Positions 34,961-54,164 of a DNA stretch of 64,000 nucleotides are shown here, in pieces. The stretch comes from Acanthamoeba castellanii str. Neff. Lineage: Eukaryota > Discosea > Longamoebia > Acanthamoebidae. The stretch lies in NCBI RefSeq assembly GCF_000313135.1, contig NW_004457702.1, positions 124,001-188,000 on the forward strand. The letters are read 5' to 3'. Both the position numbers and the translations under genes were made by a program. Under the pieces are notes generated by a model. That model saw only the letters and a program-made list of their open reading frames with translations. It was not told where the DNA came from and did not search any database. The stretch's first letter is position 1. The number at the start of each line of letters is the position of its first letter.

Positions 34961-36659
34961 CAAGGGCTGATCTCGGTGAGGGCGTCCTTCTGGAGCTCGG
35001 GGAAGTTGGCCAGCACCTTGTTGAGAATGTACCGGCCGTACAGGATCGGCTCGCGGGGCTCGGCCGCCACTATGCGTGTCGTGTGTTGTGTGTGTGTTGT
35101 GTGTGTGTGTGTTGTGTGTGTGTGTTGTGTGTGTGTTGTGTGTGGTCATGCGTCAGGCCAATCACACCACACATTATCATAATGGGTGTGTTGCGCCGCA
35201 AGTACCCTGCCCCTTGGCTTCGAGTTCGCGCCGGCAGTGCTCGAGCGGCGACACGAGGCACTTGAAGTTGGGGTCGAAGAAGAACGGCGCCGAGAGCCGG
35301 TCAACGGCGCTGCTGTTCTTCACCCGATGCGGCGTCGCCTTGTACAATCCTGCACGATTGAAATCGTGTGAGTGTGCGTGTGCGGTGATGCGTGCGTGAG
35401 TGTGCGTTGAGTTAGTACCGCAGGTCCAGGTCTCCAGCATGTCACCAATATTGACGACGAAGGTGCCGGGAATGGGCGGAGCTGCGATCCACTGGCCGTC
35501 CTTCGTCAGCACCTCGAGTCCGCCCACGTCGTCCTGGCCCAGGATCGTCAGCACGCCGTAATCTGTCGTCGCGACCGCAACCGCAACGTTGGGTTCATAT
35601 CCATGAGTCCCTTTGGCCACGCCCCTTTTTCAACGGTCGGTGCATTGTGTGCGGGGGGGTACCTGTGTGTTGGCCGACGCCCCACTGTTCCTCCCTGGGC
35701 AAGGGGTCGGCCGGGTAGTAGAACAGGCGGAAGGGCGTGAACGGCGACGACGTAAACTGCTCTCTGTACGTTGACAACAAACAACGTTGTACAGGTGAGG
35801 GTGATGAGGAAGATGAAGATGATGGTGATGCTAAGGGACAATGAACCTGAAGTAGTTCTCGCTCAAATTGAGGGACAGCGCAATGCCCCGCATCACCTGA
35901 TGTCCCAGCTCTGGGTGGGCGTGGAGGCCGAGTGAGCGTTGAAAGAGAGGCCTAGAGAGAGAGAGAGAGAGAGAGTTGAGAATGTACCCGTGAGAGCGTC
36001 CATGTAGTCGATGATGAGCTTGTCGAAGCCCGGGAACAGCTCCGGGTCAGGCCACTGGTTTCGTCCATGCATCGGCAACTGTGTGGAAACATGTCAGTGT
36101 CAGTGTAGCTGTCACCACCAACCGTCCAATTCTCATCTTTATTGATCAAGACCTCGCTCACGTACCTTGGCTTTCACCTCCTCAGCGTCATCGCCCAGCT
36201 CGGCACCAAAGTAGAGTCCCTCCTGCACGTGGTGATGCCCCAAAAAGAAGAAGGTTCTGTGGACGTACGTGGCAACACAAAGATGGACCGACCGAAAAGA
36301 AGAGCACAACCTACCTTGAAATCCTTCTTCTTGGAGGTGTACTCGCCCTGCAGCTCGAACCAGCCCCGAAACACGGCGTTGTTGCGCATGTGGATGCTCT
36401 CCTTCTTGTCGTGAGGGCACTCGCCGAAGAATCGCTTGCCCTCGGCGAACAACCTCGCGATGAGATTTTCGTCAATTCCATGATTTTTGATGTAGAAGAA
36501 GCCGAATCGGAGGCACGCCTCTCGCAGCTCATCCACCACCTTCTGGAGGGCCGCCGCTTCAGCATCCGCGCTTGAAGATGAAGATTTGGTGAGTGGCGAA
36601 ATGTCGATCACCGGAAGCGTGGCCGGCACCACGGGGACCGTAACGTTGGTGCTTTCCAT
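34961..36659 (-). CDS. 2-oxoglutarate/Fe(II)-dependent dioxygenase (isopenicillin N synthase-like)
   Basis: ATG at 36659. The N-terminal DIOX_N-type part has LPVIDISPLTKS and ELREACLRFGFFYIKNHGID. FRGWFELQGEYTSKKKDFKE, GLYFGAELGDD and LPMHGRNQWPDPELFPGF then resemble the plant and fungal oxygenase group. The jelly-roll core has WGVGQHTDYGVLTILGQDD (iron ligands H-x-D), FVVNIGDMLETWT, ATPHRVKNSS (third ligand His) and DRLSAPFFFDPN, where R-x-S binds 2-oxoglutarate. All cofactor ligands are present. The C-terminus reads LYGRYILNKVLANFPEL and ends at 34961. About eight introns; one near 35080 is a TG/TTG repeat. The substrate is unknown. Confidence 0.9.
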
Positions 36660-36775
36660 CTCCTACTTCGTCTGTAAAGGCTCTTCTTTGTTGAGTTGGT
36701 GTTGGCCAATACAGCAATAATTAAATGCCAATCGGCGAGACGTGCAGTTGGGCTGCAGGGACCTACTCCTACGAC

Positions 36776-36818
36776 ACGACACGACACGCCCGACACGACA
36801 CGACACGACACGACACAC
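36776..36818. repeat. (ACGAC)n pentamer repeat between 2OG oxygenase and PEX2
   Basis: Complement of the pentamer at 28788, slightly interrupted, in the 197-base gap between two minus-strand genes. Confidence 0.8.
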
Positions 36819-36856
36819 GGCAAACGACGTGATGTGTGTAGTTTTAGGAAATGGTT

Positions 36857-37415
36857 TCAGGAGGGTGGTGAAGACGAAGGCACATCGGTGGCAGAGGCAG
36901 AGAGAGCGCCGAGGGTGAAGGGCTTGATCTGCTTGATCTGGTGATTGCAGCTCGGGCACGCATAGCTCCGATCGACCATCATCGCCGTCTTGATGCAGTA
37001 GTAGCAGAACAGGTGCCCGCAATCTAACACGAAACACACGACACACACCACACCAGACGCGACAATCAGGCATGAGATCGCATGAGTTGTTCGAGAGCGA
37101 ACGCGAACCTGACAGGTAAGGTGAGTGCGCAGGGTCTGCTTGACACACTCCACACCTGATCACACACACACCACACCACACACACACGGTCAGTGTGCGC
37201 GTGCTCAAGAGTTCAAGACGGCGCGATGAGGTGTACCCGGCATTGCCCAGCGAGGGACTCAGTTTGTTGCGGAACTTGAAGAGGCGGTAGATGGTTCGTT
37301 TGATTCGGTCGGCGTTGATGAGGGGCGTCAAGAACATGAGGAACTCCTGATTGGTAGCCATTGGCCCGCCGTACGATGATGAGCACCTCCACAAAACACC
37401 AAACGACGTGTGTGT

Positions 37416-37461
<46 letters not shown>

Positions 37462-38823
37462 GTGTGTGTGGTGTGTTTTGGAATCATGTAAAGCCACGAA
37501 CAAACGCGCACCGAAAAGCCGTGCCACACGAGCTGCCTGTTCATGAACTCGAAGTTGACAAAGCGGGCGACCGATGGACGTGCATAGACGAGGCGCATGC
37601 CCAGGAGCCTGTCGACCGGGCTCATGTACCTGGTGGTACACCCAAAGCAAAATAATAATCAATCAGAAAAGTCTGATGAAAAAAGAATCGTTGTAGGTCG
37701 GTGAAGATGGCGGGCGTACTTTCCGTTGTAGAGGAAGGCCACAAAGTTGAGCAGCGTGAGTGCCTTCCACGCGACCTCCAGGTAGTTCAGTACTTTCCAC
37801 AGCGTTTTGTAGACGTCGTCTTCGTCTCGTTCGGCCCATGTTCGATCCGATGCCAGACGATTGAGCCTGCGCTCACATGAATTCGTGGTAAAAAAAGAGG
37901 TCAATCAACACGGTGAGCAGAGAGAGGGCCGATATCAACCTTGCCCAAGCCCATGCGCCTCCAATGTGCAGCACGCCCCACATAATCTTCTGCAGTGTTG
38001 AGGGTGGGATGATCCGCTGGGTCGCTGCGTTGGTCGGCATCGACGTGCACGACACCGGTGAGTGTGAGCAAGAGGTCCTTTTTTATATTAATTCGCGATG
38101 TTGTGTTGTGGTGAACCTTGTAGGTAGTCCTGTCGCTCATCTCGATAGGTGAGATTCTGCAATCGTTGACCGTACGTTGATCCCGTGGCGTAGAGTGAGA
38201 GTCTGGTTGAACGCTGAGTGTGAGAAGCGTGCAGTGCGCCGCTTGTGTGTGTCTGTGTGTGGCCTGGGAGGCGACGGTACCTGTACATAATGAAGTAGAG
38301 GAAGGCATCGAGCTCGGGCGTAAATCTGTCGATGAGCGATGGCTGCAAACGACATAAGAATGGTGAGCAATCAGCGGAAAGCCCTCACAATGCGAAGCTT
38401 GGGTGCTGTACTCGGAAGAGGGAGAATATTTTGGTGAAGGAGGTCTTGATGATGGAGGTGAGTTCGTTATCGAGGAGCGATGCATCCAGCTGATTGACTC
38501 GCAGCACTCTCAGCGGCACCGGCGCTAGTTCGCTGGCGCAATTATTGAAATGATTATTAATAAATAAATGATTGATAATATAAATAAAAAAGGAGACTCA
38601 CCTCAGCTTAGCGGCGAAGGTGTGGAGGAGAGGTGCGGCTCGCTCCCATTCTTTTTCCCAAGGCCGCCCCTGGTGCGGCGCCATCTTTAATCACATGCAG
38701 GCGATTCATCTTTGAGAGTTTTCCACGTACCTGAGGTCCAGTGGATGCGTCTTCCAGTGGAGCTGCACCCGGGTCCAGGCTTGGAGAAGTTGAGGCATCT
38801 GCAGGGCTCTCCGTCGATTCCAT
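36857..38823 (-). CDS. PEX2: Peroxisome biogenesis factor 2 (PEX2), RING ubiquitin ligase
   Basis: PEX2, with PEX10 and PEX12, forms the peroxisomal membrane channel and ligase that ubiquitinates the import receptor PEX5. ATG at 38823. After an acidic, Ser-rich start the protein reads LRVLRVNQLDASLLDNEL, the PEX2 signature, then FRPSLIDRFTPELDAFLYF and NLTYRD. Middle exons give HIGGAWAWARL, LLNFVAFLYNGKY, MSPVDRLLGMRLVYARPS and [27 protein letters not shown], the membrane segments typical of the family. The C-terminal RING has DCGHLFCYYCIKT and ACPSCNHQI. It ends SSPPS-stop at 36857. About nine introns, one a long TG repeat at 37411. Head-to-head with the cyclotransferase gene across only 86 bases. 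Confidence 0.92.
37411..37469. repeat. (TG)n microsatellite in a PEX2 intron
   Basis: About 59 bases of nearly pure TG between the LPLIN-type exon and the HGFS exon. Confidence 0.9.
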
Positions 38824-38909: not shown

Positions 38910-39661
38910 ATGCGGCGACTGCTGTCCCTCCCGAAGCACCGGTGCCTCCCACACAGCTCGTTGAGCTCCACCGCCTCGTCGATTGCCGTGATGCGAAGAG
39001 ATTATGTGCATAATCCTAATCAAGCCGCAAGCGGAGAGAAATCGAGCGAGGTGCGGCACCTGTTCGCATACGGTACTCTGCGGCCGGACGACGTCAAGGG
39101 GGCGCCCTGGACCAAGCGCTTCCGGGAGGGCATGGTGTGGCAGCGCGCTCGTGTGCCCAGCGCTCGCCTGTTCGCCGACCGCTACCCCTTCGTCGTCCTC
39201 TCGCCCCCTGTACGTGACGCAACCTGCGTGGATGAGCTTCATAATGGAGGCCAGACTGACTGCTCATGACGACGCCTCAGGGGCAGGAGGAGACCACTAA
39301 GACCACGATGAAGCATGCGGACTACGTGGTCGGGTACGTCATGTGCTGCGATGACCAGGCGAGCTTCCAGGCCAAGCTGGAGGAGGCCGACGAGATCGAG
39401 GGCCACCCGCACTACTACCAGCGCTCTGTCGTTGAGGCCATCATCGAAGATGATCAGGAGGACGTTGTTGTCGATCACCGCCCAGAGCCAGCGACTGGTG
39501 AGAAGAAGAAGGTCAAGTGCTTCATCTACCACCGGCAGGCGAGCCTTTCGGCGTACCCCGTGTGGTGTGGGGATTGGGCCTTCGTCGGGCTGCAGTACCC
39601 CACCACGCCGACCGACCGCTTCTTCCAGACCAACGCCGATCGAACCACCAAGACCAAGTAG
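38910..39661 (+). CDS. Gamma-glutamylcyclotransferase-like protein (AIG2/GGCT fold)
   Basis: ATG at 38910. About 45 residues rich in Arg and Ser (MRRLLSLPKHRCLPHSSLS) look like a mitochondrial targeting sequence; an internal ATG (MRRDYVHNPNQ) could start a cytosolic form. The fold's signature follows, LFAYGTLRPDDVKGAPW, then RVPSARLFADRYPFVVL. After one intron (gap near 39211-39280) come GYVMCCDDQASFQAKLEEADEIEGHPHYYQR-like sequence and AFVGLQYPTTPTDRFF. The YGTL motif binds the gamma-glutamyl substrate, and the acidic residue in EEADEIEG occupies the position of the catalytic glutamate. It may act on gamma-glutamyl amino acids or amines, or be one of the many AIG2-like proteins of unknown substrate. 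Stop TAG at 39661. Confidence 0.82.
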
Positions 39662-46017: not shown

Positions 46018-49000
46018 ATGTTCCGGGCCGGACAGCTAGCTTGCGCGCGACCAGAAGGAACTCGAAAGGAAGGGCGCGAGGTCGTTGCCGGGTGCGTACG
46101 AAGCTTCGAAAGATTGGCGAAGATGGAAGAAAAAGAAAAGCGAAGGGGAGACGAGCTGTTGATCCTCGTAGGTACGCAGACGGGGACGGCGGAAGAGTTG
46201 GGCGGACGCCTGGCCTTCGTGGCCCGCAAGCATGGCCTCACCGCCCGCCTCCTTCCCTTCGACCAATACGACGTGGTACTTGCACCCCTCATAAAAGATT
46301 TAAAATGATTAAAATTCTATTATTTTATTGTTCTTTATTTACACGTTGCCGTGCACCACAAATAGAACGAGCTGACGAAGGAGTCGCTGGTGGCCATCTG
46401 CTGCTCCACGTACGGCACGGGCACCTTCCCAGCCAACACGCAGGCACGCACTCCCACAATGCCCTCTTCTTACGTCCGATGGCTGGGGGCTGACGTCAGC
46501 TGAAAAAACGCGGCGTTGATGACGTGTGGGATTGCTTGTGTGGCACACGATCAGAGAGCGTGGGAGGAGCTGAATGGAATGCCCGAAGGCTCTTTGGCAC
46601 AGCTGCGCTTTGGTGTGTTTGGACTGGGCAACAAGAACACGCGACACGACTTCAACAACGCTGCCAAGGTGCGGATGCGCCTCTCCACCGAATCGCCAGG
46701 CAGCTCAACTTCAACCTCAACTGCACACACACACGCGTTACCCCACCATACCGCACAAACACCACCACAGAAACTGCACGCAAAGCTGTTGGCACTCGGT
46801 GCCACGGACGTCCACAAGCTCGGTCTCGGCTGCGAACTCGATCCCGATGGGTGCGTACGCATTCAACGTTCACATCCAAATAATCGCTTGACGTGCATTC
46901 ACACATGTGCGTGTGCGTGTGTGCGTGTGCGTGCGGTTTGCACCAGGCACTACACTGCGTTCGTGCCGTGGATGATTGGGTTTTTCTCGGGCATCGTTAG
47001 TGACGCGGAGAAGGAGGCGCTGGAGAAGAACCCCCTGCACATCTCCTCGGCCCTGTACAAGGTCACCGAGCAGCCCGCGCCCGAGCTCTCCGAAAGCATG
47101 TCCAGCTCGCGCCGCGTCGAACGCAAACGCGGCGCTCCGCCGGGCTACACCTACGTCAAGCTGAAGCGCAACAAGAAGGTCACGCCCGAGAACTACATAC
47201 GTCGCATCTACCGAGCCGACATCTCCCTCAAGCACACCGATTTGAAGTATGCATCGCCTCAACCTTGGTTGGCTTGTGGCCACACAAGAGCCTGACTCCC
47301 CTTCTTTTCCCTCGATAGCTATGAGGTGGGCGATCACATCTCCATCTTGCCGCAGAACGACGTCGGTTCGGTCTCGGCCTTCATGCGATTCTACGATCTC
47401 GACCCCACGGCGTCGCTCACCATCACTCCGATCTTGGAAGGTGCGTACCTTCGTTTTCAGAGACTTGCGGCCCGCAACCAGGAGTTCACTCACGGTGGAT
47501 TGAGCTTGCAGGCCTGCCGCCGCTGAAGATCACGCAGCCGCTGACCGTGAGCGAACTGTTGACAAAATACCTGGACCTGTTCGGGCGGCCCACCAAGCAC
47601 CTGATCCGCTTCATCGCCCAGTCGCTCAGCCCGGCCGAGAAGCAGAAGCTTCAGCTGCTCATCGACGATCCCGTACGTTTGGCCGTCGGCTATCACTTTG
47701 CTTTGAGTGCTGGCCACTTGCATTGCTTCTGATCACCGAAACTCTGCAGGTTGCATGGGAGTCGTTCCAAGCCGAGTTCCCCTCGGCCTGCGACATCTTG
47801 CTGCGTTACTCGTCTGTCCGGTTGACCCTCGCCGAGCTGGTCACCTTCATCCCCCTGATTCGGCCCCGCCTCTACTCCATGATCAGCTGTCCTCAGGTAC
47901 TCGTCAAACGCTCCCACATCACACTAACGCCACGAGTGTCAGAACTGCTAAAGCAGCTGTCTCTGTTCAGCTGCATCGGAGGCAGCTACGATTGATCTAT
48001 CTTTGCCGCGAGTGGCGCGCGCCCGGCGGGAGGACAGTGAAAGGACTGGCCACCTCGTATCTTTCCCGCCTTAAACGCAAGCACGGTACGATCGCACCAC
48101 ACACGACACACGACACAACACACAGCACATAAAGCACAACACGCACGCTGATAACTAGATATGGAATGCAGACCTGTTGGCAGTGAAAATACAGAAGGGC
48201 GTGTTCCGGTACGACGAACAGAAGGCCAAAGCGCCGCTCATGTTCGTCGCTCTGGGCACGGGCGTGGCCACCGCCATCTCCCTGCTCCACCTCCGCAAGG
48301 CCATGCTCGATCAAGGTACCGCGTACCACCGCCCATGGGCGTGCCATTTTCATGTCGTGCGCCCACACCATCTCTCGTGTCTCGTGCGTCATGTGATCGT
48401 GTGTGACGTCAGGCGCCACGGTGGGCTCAATGGTCCTATTCTACGGCTGTCGACACAAGGACCAGGATTTTCTATTCCAGAAGGAGCTCGACCAGTTCGT
48501 CCAGACCGGTAAGTTAGTGACCGTACCGATTACAGGCAGGACATCGCGTTTTGTTGACTTCCCGGTCCACAGGGGTGCTCAACCAAGTCGTGTCGGCGTT
48601 CTCGCACGATCAAGAAGAGCGCGTATTCGTACAGGACAAGATTCGCGAGAAGAAGGAGCTGGTGGCCTCCTATGTGCAACACAAGGACGCCCTTTACTAT
48701 TACTGCGGGTAACCCGCCCGGGCTATGAGTGATTGTTTTTGTTCCCCCCCCCCAATGGTTTAACTCCGATCACTGCATACAGGCTGGGCGGCGTAGTGCC
48801 ATTCTTGGTCGAGGAGGCCATCGGCGAGGCGATCGTCACCATGGTTCATGATCTCCCCCTCCTCTCGATGCATGCGACCACCCACACCAACCGCCTCGTT
48901 GTTCCAGGGCAAGTCGCAGCACGAAGCCGAAGCGTTGATCACGGAGATGCGGTCCGAGCAGCGGTGGTTCGTCGAGGCCTACTCTGCGACTCTCACCAAA

Positions 49001-50058
49001 AACCTTGAGCTCGGTACCGATCATTTCAATTTTCGTTTCTCCATGGAAGAATGAGATGACACATTACGATTGGGCTGTGCAGAGGTGATAGAGAAGCACG
49101 ACGTGGAGGAGGTGCGTGCGCCGGTGATCTTCTCGGAGAAGGGCAGCCTTCGCGCCGGATCCTTGGAGAAGGTCATCGAGTGGGTGTGCTCTAAGCCATT
49201 GACCGGCGACAACCGGAACGAGGTACCGGTTCACCTACTCTCCAACATCAGAGAGAAATGCGCATTTTGACCTTAATGGCGTGTGGCGGTGGTTCGACCA
49301 GATCTGGTCCGATAGAGATGCGTTCCTGTTGTGCTATCGCCAGTACTGCACGCCCGAGCAACTGCTCGAGAAGATCACCTCCCTGTACGTTTTTGCCCCG
49401 AGCCGGCACCCACCGCTAATCTCCAGCCTATGACCATCGCGCCCATTTACCACTAATCTTGGTTATGTACCTGCAACGAACGAACAGGGTGGCAATGTAT
49501 TCGTTGCATTCGGGCGAAGAGAGCGTCTCCACGAAGGCGTTTGTCTCAAAGTACCGCATCATGACCACCTTTCTTACCTGTATCCTGGATGATGGTGACT
49601 GATGAACTATTCTTGTTTCGGGCCCGGGCGCGAAGTGTGCTGGACTTCATGCACCGGTGGGTGGAAGGCTGGGCGCTGCACGACTTTAGAGCTGAAACGC
49701 ACGACATCGCGCTCACCTCCATTCCTGGTACTGCTGCTGCTTGTGGTAACTGTTCATTTGTTAAATGGCGAATGACTTGCTCATTATTCTTCTTATTTTA
49801 GAGGAGCATGACAGTGCGCACGATGAGCCATTGAGCTCAAAGCTGCTCAAGTTTGTATCGATAGTGGCCCACGACCAAGTGTCGAGCTTCACCGAATCTC
49901 TCGACAGGCTCAAGTGCGGAGCGGCGGCGGTATGCTCTCTTTATCTCCACTGGAACGTGAAACTTTTGGCGCCCCTAACCACTTTTCGTTCTTTGTTTTT
50001 CATTCATCCATTAAACCTGCAGGCTAGAAAAAAGAAACTGATGTACGTCCAACCTCAC

Positions 50059-50096
<38 letters not shown>

Positions 50097-53016
50097 CACA
50101 CACACACACACACACACAACACCACCTCACACGCACCAACGCACACACCGGCTCACGTTTGTTGCATCTGCAGTATGGTCGTCAAGGATTCGCGCGCCAA
50201 CCACTCCTTCCCCACCCTTACGCGGTACTGCCAATCTCACCAATCAGCCTTTCACTGTTCGTGAAAGAACTCACGCCTTTCCGTCCCCCCTCACTGCAGG
50301 CAACAGTCCAGCTCACCGCGTGATCTCACCGATTCGGTCATTCTTCAACGGTTCCAGTACGTGCCCTCCCCGCGTGTTGCATGCGTGTCTCATGGCACTC
50401 AACCGACCGAGCTGTTCTGTCTTTTAGGAAGCGCAAGTCCGATCCGTCAGTGCTGAAGGACATGACCTGCAATTTGGTCTCAGGTCAGATCGGCTCGGTA
50501 CTCGACTTCGAAGCCGAAGAGCTGGCCCTGCATCTCGCCTTCAAAGAACAACAGCGCTACAACAAGTGCGTAGCCTCTCTTTGCACCTTTCTTTCTCATT
50601 TTAGAGTCACTTTAGAGTGGTTATTATACTATATCTATATCTTTTATTTACTATGTATACTTATATATTAACACCTATTTCTGAATTAGAATTACTGCCT
50701 TGGATCTGTTGGTGAACATCAAGCGCCCGGTGGGCTTGATCACCGACTTTGCGAAGGCGTCGAACAAGATCAGCAGCTGGGTGGCGACGGAGATCGTGAC
50801 GGCGCCTGACGAGAAGTCCCGCGTGGCGACCATCGAGGCGTTCATCAAGGTGGCGCAGTGCTGCTGGGAGCTCAACAGCTTCAACACAGCCATGGACATC
50901 ATCTCGGGCCTCAACAGCTTCTCTATCTCACGACTCAAGCAAATTTGGGATGTATGCATCGCTACCCACACGCCACACACGACACACACGACACGCGACA
51001 CACACGCCATACACGACACACAGCCTCACTGTGCATTCGGCAGTCGGTCTCCGCACGAGGGCACGAGGTATTGGACGGCCTGGTGTCGGGTATGGACCCA
51101 GCGGGCAACTTCCGTAACTATCGCAACCACGCCGAGACTTTGGCCCCGCCCATGACTCCCTACATCGGTACCGAGCCTTCATCCTTAAGCGCCGATCTCT
51201 GTTCCCCTCTCACCGGCTTGCGTGTGCGCACCCGCAGCTTTGGTGCTGCGTGACCTCACCTTTGCCAATGACGGCAATCCGAGCTTCCTCGAGGGGTACG
51301 GGCACCAATTCAGTTAATTCCTGAACGTTGATTCAACACTCACATCACACTCTTCTGTTTTCTTTAAAGCGACTTGATCAACTTTGAGCGGATGACGCTG
51401 TTCTTCTCCATTATCTCGGACATTCTCAAGTACCAGCTGTTGCCGCAGCATCAGATCCAAGTGAACGACACTGCGCTCTCATTCCTGAATGGTGTTGAGG
51501 TACTCCACGCTTCCTGAGAAAATGCGCTGCGTCGCGCTTGCTTTGATTCAATTCTCATCACACACCACGTTCATGTCGCGGTCATCAACACACCAGGTGT
51601 TTGATGAGGACCGTCTGTACAAGCGATCGCTCGAGATTCAGCCGTCGGCCAGGAAGGACGCGGGCCAAGCCACCAACGAGGGGAAGGAAGACGACATCGA
51701 ACAAACGAAGCTCATTCGCATCGTGCACCGAGTTGTCGCCTGTCAGGACTTCAAAGCGCTCAAGGTACCCGCCACTTGACACGAACACATTACACACGGC
51801 ATGCGGGCATTTACCGTGAACTCTCTCTAGGTGATCCTGGACGCCCAGCCGGACATTGTCAATATTGCGAACGACCGATTGAAGACGCCGCTACACTTGG
51901 CCTGCACCAGTATGACACGCACACGCACACTCACACTCACACAAGAGCACTCACGTTCTTCACTTTGTGGCCGCACAGTCGGAAACGCCAAGGTGGTGGC
52001 GCTCCTGCTGGAAGACAGACGAGGCGCTCAGACCGACTTGCGCGACATCAACGGCGACACCGCTCTTCACTTTGCCGCGTCTCACAACCACCTGAAGGTG
52101 CTTCCCCCTCTTCTCCTTTACACGTCCCTCACCAAGCCTCCGTTGGAGGCCTCACACATCACCATATGTATACATATGTGGTGTCCAGATCGTGAAAATG
52201 CTGCTGAAGAAGGGAGCCTCGCCCAACATTTTGAACGAAAAGAAGCTTTCGCCGTTGGATGTGGCCACGCCCAGCGTGCAGTCCTATCTCAAGGTGAGCC
52301 TGTTCAGGCCGATGTTCGAAAGCCTGAAGAAGGAGATCGTGTTCGATGACAAGAGGTACCTAGATCTACGCACTTATTCTTCAGTGAACGCTACGAGTGA
52401 TCAGCTGGCTCAAGTCCTCTATGTTTGTGTGTAGTGGTGGCAAGAACCGTCCGTTGATGGTGTGGACCGATTCGCTGTCTGTTGGTGTGAAGAAGTTCGA
52501 CAAGGCCCACCAGCGTCTCGTGGAGTACATCAACGTTCTCTTTGCCATCATTGGGTACCAGCCAATTCCCACCATACCCACACATGTTCTCCTGCTCACC
52601 ATCGTCATCACACTCACCTTTTGTCCGACCAGAACGCAAGAGAAGGACAAGCGGAAGCAGCAGATCACCTCGCTGTTGCAGTGCCTGATTGACTACACTC
52701 AGTATCACTTTGCGCAGGAAGAGGAGCTCTTTACGCAGCTCAACTACCCCGATGAGGCCGGCCACGTCCGCAAACACAAGCACGTCTTTTCCCAGTATAT
52801 CTTGTACGAGTGTTGCCAACATGATTGCTAACATGGCACCACCAACATCTCCAGGCGTTTGCTCGAGCAGGTAGAGCAGTTTTGCAAGTTGCACCAAAAG
52901 GGCAAGAGCATCAACTTGAGCAAGCTGGCCAAGTTCCTCCGCGAATGGCTGCTGCACCATATCATGGAAGACGACATGAAGTACAAGCCCTTCTTCCACC
53001 AGCACAACATTTACTG
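46018..53016 (+). CDS. Diflavin reductase-RasGEF-ankyrin-hemerythrin multidomain protein
   Basis: A chain of exons with no in-frame stop, about 7 kb. From the ATG at 46018: flavodoxin domain (LLILVGTQTGTAEELGGRLA, CCSTYGTGTFPANTQ, FGVFGLGNKNT); FAD domain (KLKRNKKVTPENYIRRIY, YEVGDHISILPQND, RPRLYSMISCPQ); NADPH domain (LMFVALGTGVATAISLLHLR, VLFYGCRHKDQDFLF, DALYYYCG). At 49020-49083 an intron joins LTKNLEL in frame to EVIEKHDVEE and the RasGEF N-terminal domain (KGSLRAGSLEKVIEWV, FLLCYRQYCTPEQLLEKI). The catalytic RasGEF follows (LDFEAEELALHLAFKEQQRY, SNKISSWVATEIV, FIKVAQCCWELNSFNTAMDI, LRDLTFANDGNPSFLEG). Next come ankyrin repeats (about 51830-52290: DRLKTPLHLACT, GDTALHFAASHNHLK) and a C-terminal hemerythrin domain (52436-53016). 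The CGD motif at the NADPH-domain end is CGL. Retaining the 49020 intron would give a reductase-only product ending at 49054. Confidence 0.8.
50062..50119. repeat. (CA)n microsatellite in a RasGEF intron
   Basis: About 58 bases of CA with one AACA interruption. Confidence 0.85.
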
Positions 53017-53034
53017 AGTTGGTGAATGTCCGCA

Positions 53035-53128: not shown

Positions 53129-54164
53129 ATGAAGTCCACAACAAGGGGCATGATCGGCGTGCGGGCAGTACGGCCCAACTTCTCCACCCTTGCATGGTTG
53201 GATCAATTGGCGATTCCTAGAATTGCTACCGGCACTGCGGCCCTACGGACCCGATCTGCGATCCCCTCGCCTGCTCTTCAGCTGAGAAGAAACATCTCAC
53301 AGCTGCTCGCCCAGCGCCCCTCATCTTCCCTTCCAATTATCACCAATTCGCGATTTTCGATCCATTTTGCCGCCCGCCGCTACGCAAGCACCTCCACCGA
53401 GGAGGCCACCGCTTCATCAAGCGACGCGAAGCGGACCAACGTTGCTGAAGAAGATGCCAACAACACCACAACACAGACCCGCGCGACGGCCGGCGAGATG
53501 GAGCTGATCTACGACGCACCAAAGAAGGGGTGCGGCGTCTTTCATCTTGTTGTGCCCGCTGCCACTGAAGGCTGATGCTATGTTGTGCTCCACACCATAA
53601 CAACGCCAGGATCCTGCGCGGGTTGAAGCTCTTCTCGCTGACGACGTGCCTGGCCTCGCTCGCCGGAACGCCCATCCTGGTCATGTTTGGCAACCCCGAT
53701 GTGCCCCTGCTGGGCCGCTCGGCCTTGGGCATCACCGGTACACACCACATTGCTTTGCTTGCGCCCATCTCACACATGACCATTCACCACACGCGTTGTG
53801 TTCTGTTGCGTGCGTTGCACGTGCGGTCGCAGCTTTGTTCTTTGGTGTGAGCACGACGGCGCTGCTGAATCATCTCACGAAGGGCTATGTGACCAAGGCC
53901 TACCTCACCACGCCGACGGTGCTTGCTGATGACCACGCGCCTGAAGAGCAGCCGAAGCAGAAGCTGGTGCTGCACACCTACAATCTGCTCACGCGCACGC
54001 GGACGGAGGAGGTCGACGTGGACGACATCCAGGCACCGCAGACCATCATGCCCTACGTCACCTTCTACTCGGAGCGCAACCGCAAGAACTACTGCCTCGA
54101 GTACACCGCCTTTGAGGACAAGGACCTGTGGCACGACCTCTTCCCCTTTGCTGATCGTGAGTGA
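53129..54164 (+). CDS. TMEM70-like mitochondrial membrane protein
   Basis: ATG at 53129. The N-terminal 100 residues are Arg/Ser-rich with few acids, including FAARRYASTSTEE, as in a mitochondrial presequence. After a short acidic stretch comes MELIYDAPKKG, then across an intron ARILRGLKLFSLTTCLASLAG and a second hydrophobic segment LGITALFFGVSTTALLNHLTKGYVTKAYL. This order (YxGP/YDAP motif, two membrane helices, H-x-x-x-K-x-Y-V) is that of TMEM70/TMEM186-like proteins, which in animals assist ATP synthase and complex I assembly in the inner membrane. The C-terminal matrix part has LHTYNLLTRTRTEEVDVDDI and YVTFYSERNRKNYCLEY. Two to three introns; AATAAA follows at 54181. Confidence 0.72.

Follow-up and report, generated by a model that had tools for sequence, protein, structure and literature searches.

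The window, which is the whole 64-kb stretch of DNA that was analysed (64,000 nucleotides), was found to contain a gene of 34 exons and 33 introns on the + strand at 46018-53017, stop codon included. The hand-spliced model encoded 1413 aa without an internal stop, with a spliced coding length of 4242 nt including the stop. Splice sites were picked by hand using domain homology and the reading frame, and the exons were joined by script; because frame and homology guided this choice, the open 1413-aa frame is not independent evidence by itself. Intron 2 (46444-46554) was best read as GC-AG, intron 13 was found to contain a poor donor and intron 17 a poor acceptor, the choice of which touches only the interior of the RasGEF_N domain. 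An alternative start was found at the in-frame ATG at 46123. The gene and its domains are as follows.

46018..53017, + strand: whole gene, reductase-RasGEF-ankyrin-hemerythrin (hand splicing, one open frame)
46162..46971, + strand: FMN domain (Flavodoxin_1), residues 49-185 (Pfam 93.6 bits, cut-off 25)
47155..48060, + strand: FAD-binding domain (FAD_binding_1), residues 247-450 (Pfam 113 bits, cut-off 32.3)
48243..48792, + strand: NAD(P)-binding domain (NAD_binding_1), residues 483-587 (Pfam 36.3 bits, cut-off 22)
49148..49690, + strand: probable RasGEF_N (REM) domain, residues 662-753 (Pfam 22.8 bits, below the cut-off of 28.3)
50519..51394, + strand: RasGEF catalytic (CDC25) domain, residues 882-1053 (Pfam 155.2 bits, cut-off 23.1)
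51735..52266, + strand: ankyrin repeats, about residues 1135-1236 (five Pfam ankyrin models over cut-off)
52484..52993, + strand: hemerythrin domain, residues 1283-1406 (Pfam 45 bits, cut-off 25.3)

Chance open reading frames were ruled out, since six domain kinds exceeded their Pfam cut-offs. The initial annotation had placed reductase, RasGEF, ankyrin and hemerythrin domains in one open exon chain, and this was borne out by the 34-exon frame, in which the Pfam domains were found in the order it gave. The RasGEF_N domain that it also put in the chain has a Pfam score below the cut-off, so that this domain can be called probable only. The reductase-RasGEF-ankyrin-hemerythrin fusion is well supported and very probably real at the sequence level.

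The FMN, FAD and NADP domains of the reductase half were found in the order of diflavin reductases, with the three Pfam families over cut-off, and this order, together with the motifs R-x-Y-S, GLATSYL and YCG that were present, is shared with NADPH-cytochrome P450 reductase and related diflavin reductases. The best PDB match was a P450 reductase (5urg, 206.7 bits, residues 36-626), and the half fell below the curated cut-off in all 15 NCBIfam families listed for it. When aligned to rat P450 reductase, R454, Y456, S457, S596 and C630 were kept as R411, Y413, S414, S549 and C583, and R597, K602, Y604 and D632 were replaced by H550, R555, F557 and L585, respectively. The counterparts of D675 and W677 were found to be E627 and Y629, which are conservative replacements placed by an ungapped extension past the alignment end. 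Residue numbers and roles of the rat enzyme are those that we take to apply: S457, C630, D675 and the aromatic residue 677 presumably serve FAD/hydride transfer, S596, R597 and K602 the NADPH 2′-phosphate pocket, and Y140 and Y178 would be the FMN-stacking aromatics. In the 2′-phosphate pocket of the fusion S549 is kept, and R597 and K602 of the rat enzyme are replaced by H550 and R555. The Y140-type aromatic was kept in STYGTG, and the Y178-type aromatic was absent from GLGNKNTRHDF in the same alignment, whereas one other reductase of the same genome reads GLGDSSYEKF at this site. The fusion thus departs from P450 reductase at R597, K602 and the Y178-type FMN-stacking aromatic, and it also extends 783 residues beyond the catalytic C-terminus. 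Judged from these residues, binding of FAD and NADPH by the predicted reductase can be assumed with more confidence than binding of FMN.

The FAD-site motif was found to read RLYSMISC in the fusion, in contrast to RYYSI[AS]SS on five of the six other contigs with FAD_binding_1, the motif not being seen in the pieces examined from the sixth contig (C189). A specialised reductase role is suggested because RLYSMISC departs from the motif of the other contigs, and the reductase of the fusion is divergent and probably specialised.

The junction of the reductase and the RasGEF part was found to contain the following features.

48908..49013, + strand: exon 14, with the reductase C-terminal end (RWFVEAYS, residues 623-630), the linker start and an in-frame ATG at 48947
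49014..49082, + strand: junction intron 14, GT-AG, 69 nt, joining reductase to RasGEF (splice score, decoy counts, read-through)
49083..49222, + strand: exon 15, with the remaining linker and the RasGEF_N start, without ATG (in-frame coding score)

A linker of about 30 residues lies between the reductase C-terminus and the recognised start of RasGEF_N at residue 662. The junction intron had been described as an ordinary GT-AG intron at 49020-49083; the class held, and the coordinates were corrected to 49014-49082. Its donor scored 7.4 bits and its acceptor 6.8 bits, and the summed score ranked fourth among the 33 introns when scored by a weight matrix trained without intron 14, a test that is modest because the matrix rests on 32 introns of one hand-made model. 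The donor matched that of intron 25 over ten bases (TCGGTACCGA). Among the decoys, which were the other GT..AG pairs 60-131 nt apart within the gene span, both scores of intron 14 were reached by 0 of the 1303 sense pairs and 2 of the 2677 antisense pairs, and the summed score by 1 and 11 of them, respectively. One decoy donor, at 49112 inside exon 15, scored 8.4 and lay above the junction donor. From 49085, exon 15 contributes 22 codons before the RasGEF_N match; read in the fused frame they had a coding score of +14.0 bits, while the other forward frames gave -14.6 and -10.6 bits and the reverse frames +5.9, +5.5 and -26.5 bits. For the tail of exon 14 the fused frame scored only +3.7. A false intron at the junction is disfavoured by the splice scores, the decoy counts and the coding score. 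Because the junction splice sites are strong and the coding score holds up to the acceptor, the sequence suggests that exons 14 and 15 are joined in at least some transcripts, which does not imply that every transcript is joined. In favour of a single polypeptide are the frame, the strength of the splice sites, the coding score and the fact that the first RasGEF exon contains no start.

The same junction bears on an alternative with two overlapping transcripts, in which a stand-alone reductase with intron 14 retained would be accompanied by a RasGEF-ankyrin-hemerythrin protein whose transcript comes from a promoter within the reductase gene and whose start is ATG 48947 or 48841. With intron 14 retained, the reductase would be given a short clean end, ...LELGTDHFNFRFSMEE, at the in-frame TGA at 49052-49054 (the initial annotation had noted a stop at 49054, and its precise position is given here), but this stop lies just 28 nt from exon 15, as compared with about 185 and 110 nt to the neighbouring genes, whose ends were placed by eye. 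The absence of an ATG near the RasGEF N-domain, noted earlier, holds between TGA 49052-49054 and RasGEF_N, where none was found, but in-frame ATGs were found upstream across intron 14, inside the reductase, at 48947 (exon 14, M618) and 48841 (exon 13, M604). These ATGs favour the overlapping transcripts, and because of them a separate shorter RasGEF product is possible, whereas the strong splice sites and the coding score up to the acceptor argue for splicing across the junction in at least some transcripts. The alternative also agrees with a survey (PMC4919030), a passage of which reports the O2-binding hemerythrins of A. castellanii Neff "only as single-domain sequences". It follows from that passage that the gene set behind the survey showed no such fusion, and the single-domain report could stem from a gene model that had been split or from a genuine difference. 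Overall, two overlapping transcripts in place of the fusion are considered unlikely, and either of their products could instead be an isoform beside the fusion.

The best PDB matches of the RasGEF part, aligned over the catalytic domain, were a guanine nucleotide-releasing protein (2ije) and Rap GEF 4 (3cf6), which we take to be RasGRF1 and Epac2, and the fusion shares this domain with RasGEF/CDC25 factors of that type. Such factors carry lipid-, cAMP- or calcium-binding domains, whereas the modules attached in the fusion were found to be a diflavin reductase and a hemerythrin.

The hemerythrin part was identified as a bacteriohemerythrin by NCBIfam NF033749 (115.4 bits, cut-off 84), and its best PDB match was DcrH (2avk), which is presumably a bacterial chemotaxis receptor. 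All seven diiron ligands (H1291, H1331, E1335, H1350, H1354, H1395 and D1400) were present, located by motif reading and by alignment to the DcrH hemerythrin, with which the seven align; the assignment uses the pattern of five His, one Glu and one Asp that we take to mark hemerythrin diiron sites. The fusion resembles the DcrH-type chemotaxis receptors in being a signalling protein with a C-terminal hemerythrin of the O2-binding type, whereas its output is a Ras exchange factor and not a methyl-accepting domain, and we know of no DcrH-type receptor with an attached reductase. FBXL5, a hemerythrin-like iron/O2 sensor in an E3 ligase, shares with the fusion the character of a eukaryotic regulator and a hemerythrin fold as sensor (in the fusion a proposed one), whereas in the fusion the domain belongs to the bacteriohemerythrins, retains the seven ligands and is attached to a GEF as output. 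P450 BM3, nitric oxide synthase and flavohemoglobin are reductases with a metal centre on one chain, and the fusion likewise joins a reductase to a metal centre, but the two are separated by a signalling enzyme, and the centre is that of a diiron hemerythrin.

The complete ligand set is to be weighed against the proposal that the reductase half is itself the sensor. It would then act as an NADPH-dependent conformational module with a partly degenerate FMN site, releasing or holding the RasGEF tail as in nitric oxide synthase, and the hemerythrin would be secondary. The Y178-type aromatic is missing as this proposal would have it, and the RasGEF part begins about 30 residues past the C-terminal aromatic Y629, a residue of the type that presumably covers FAD in the diflavin reductase family; a mere passenger, however, need not retain seven ligands, and a sensor in the reductase half is regarded as quite improbable.

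A fusion whose modules do not communicate is a real but minor possibility. The reductase would in that case serve separate partners such as P450s, the fusion would do no more than bring it to a Ras complex by way of the ankyrin repeats, and the hemerythrin would only store O2 or iron. Such an arrangement fits the PDB ranking, in which P450 reductase is closest, and the ankyrin repeats, which are generic binding modules, but it fits less well with the RLYSMISC motif, which suggests a specialised reductase role. Against it stands also the company kept by hemerythrins elsewhere: among O2-binding hemerythrins with several domains, signalling proteins are the most common, with 33 MCP proteins containing a C-terminal hemerythrin and 22 proteins containing GGDEF, as counted in the survey (PMC4919030).

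The modules lie in one open, well-spliced frame and most of the active-site residues checked are present. Because the catalytic RasGEF, the seven diiron ligands and the key FAD/NADPH residues are present, the sequence can reasonably be read, as the initial annotation did, as a Ras activator that has both an O2/iron site and a source of electrons. Gating of the GEF by O2, NADPH or redox state is what we infer from this reading. The reading preferred here, that the product of a single gene is a guanine nucleotide exchange factor for Ras/Rap whose built-in redox/O2 input is reset by the attached reductase, is tentative and is given somewhat less than an even chance. The C-terminal hemerythrin diiron site would be the sensor, in which O2 binding, or oxidation from the diferrous to the met state, would change the hemerythrin fold, and the change would pass through the ankyrin repeats to the RasGEF domain, which would in turn load a Ras-family protein with GTP. 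At the N-terminus, the diflavin reductase would take electrons from NADPH, re-reduce the hemerythrin and so reset the sensor, the set point of which would depend on NADPH. A diflavin reductase that is part of a fusion generally serves a redox centre of its own chain, as in P450 BM3 and nitric oxide synthase, and since the diiron site is the only recognised acceptor in this chain, the hemerythrin is the candidate for re-reduction. The mechanism is proposed from the component domains and by analogy to fused reductases and to hemerythrin receptors; what chiefly speaks against it is the survey's single-domain finding in Neff, together with the ATGs inside the reductase and the unusual FMN site. 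Its fullest form, a self-contained oxygen-to-Ras switch in which NADPH electrons feed a diiron O2 sensor whose ligand or redox state sets the GTP loading of Ras, is put forward with a little more reserve, as a possibility that should be held loosely.

If both the fusion and the coupling are true, the protein would be a direct wire from the state of O2, iron and NADPH to Ras, and a natural design for an electron-powered signalling protein. Ras signalling would then be under O2/redox control in a lineage for which HIF-type sensing is reported to be absent. According to the passages of Clarke et al. 2013 (PMC4053784) that concern oxygen, A. castellanii survives microaerophilic conditions, no genes of the typical HIF architecture were found in it, and its H-NOX proteins are more likely NO than O2 sensors. 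In these passages prolyl 4-hydroxylases are named as likely to respond to O2, so that another O2 route has already been proposed. A Ras exchange factor with an O2-binding-type hemerythrin would add a concrete candidate that can be tested. The words hemerythrin, RasGEF and flavodoxin do not occur in the main text of that paper. The initial annotation knew of no described protein with the layout of the fusion, and no paper combining RasGEF and hemerythrin was found among the matches listed, which does not establish absence from print; an Acanthamoeba RasGEF gene, ACA1_112150, is named in a part of PMC7366918, and RasGEFs are mentioned in passing in a part of PMC13359236.

The genome (38.4 Mb, 250 contigs) is taken to be that of an Acanthamoeba close to A. 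castellanii, since a profilin ORF in it agrees at 125 of 125 residues with the PDB chain 1f2k (profilin II), which we take to be from A. castellanii. It was searched exon by exon, and the counts are lower bounds because such a search can miss intron-split domains. At least 134 matches were found for RasGEF and at least 42 for RasGEF_N, the fusion locus not being among the 42, so that its own intron-split RasGEF_N was missed. FAD_binding_1 was found at least 18 times on 7 contigs, Flavodoxin_1 at least 9 times on 5 contigs and hemerythrin at least 3 times on 3 contigs. Among the matches listed for the 38.4-Mb genome, RasGEF was found adjoining diflavin reductase/FAD_binding_1 or hemerythrin nowhere but at the fusion locus. 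The contigs C90 and C189 contained RasGEF and FAD_binding_1 more than 300 kb apart, and among the matches listed no RasGEF was found on C27 and C235, which contained hemerythrin, or on C53, C101, C183 and C208, which contained FAD_binding_1. No second copy of the fusion was seen in the genome by tblastn of both halves, one of the searches covering the best 70 of 166 candidates; identity was 69-100% at the fusion locus and at most 53% elsewhere among the scored matches, which were other reductases, RasGEFs and ankyrin genes. Viral and prokaryote contigs, where amoebae are not expected, gave 6 pattern matches and 23 and 42 pattern matches, respectively, with no relatives among them. As an observation apart from the fusion, the number of exon-level RasGEF matches in the 38.4 Mb points to a large exchange-factor repertoire.

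Elsewhere in the 64-kb window, the Rfam scan gave no matches and the tRNA scan no genes. On the - strand, two exon-size frames at 35180-36662 were found to match DIOX_N (80 bits) and 2OG-FeII_Oxy (75.7 bits), both over the Pfam cut-off, and are taken by us to be an isopenicillin N synthase-like 2-oxoglutarate dioxygenase; a piece of a Pex2/Pex12-type peroxisome biogenesis protein was found on the same strand at 36666-37658 (32.1 bits, cut-off 25.1). The + strand contained a weak gamma-glutamyl cyclotransferase-like (GGACT) match at 39260-39658, which scored 20.1 bits and lies below the cut-off of 22.8, and, just 3′ of the fusion gene at 53601-54161, a piece of the TMEM70/TMEM186/TMEM223 family (24.2 bits, cut-off 22).
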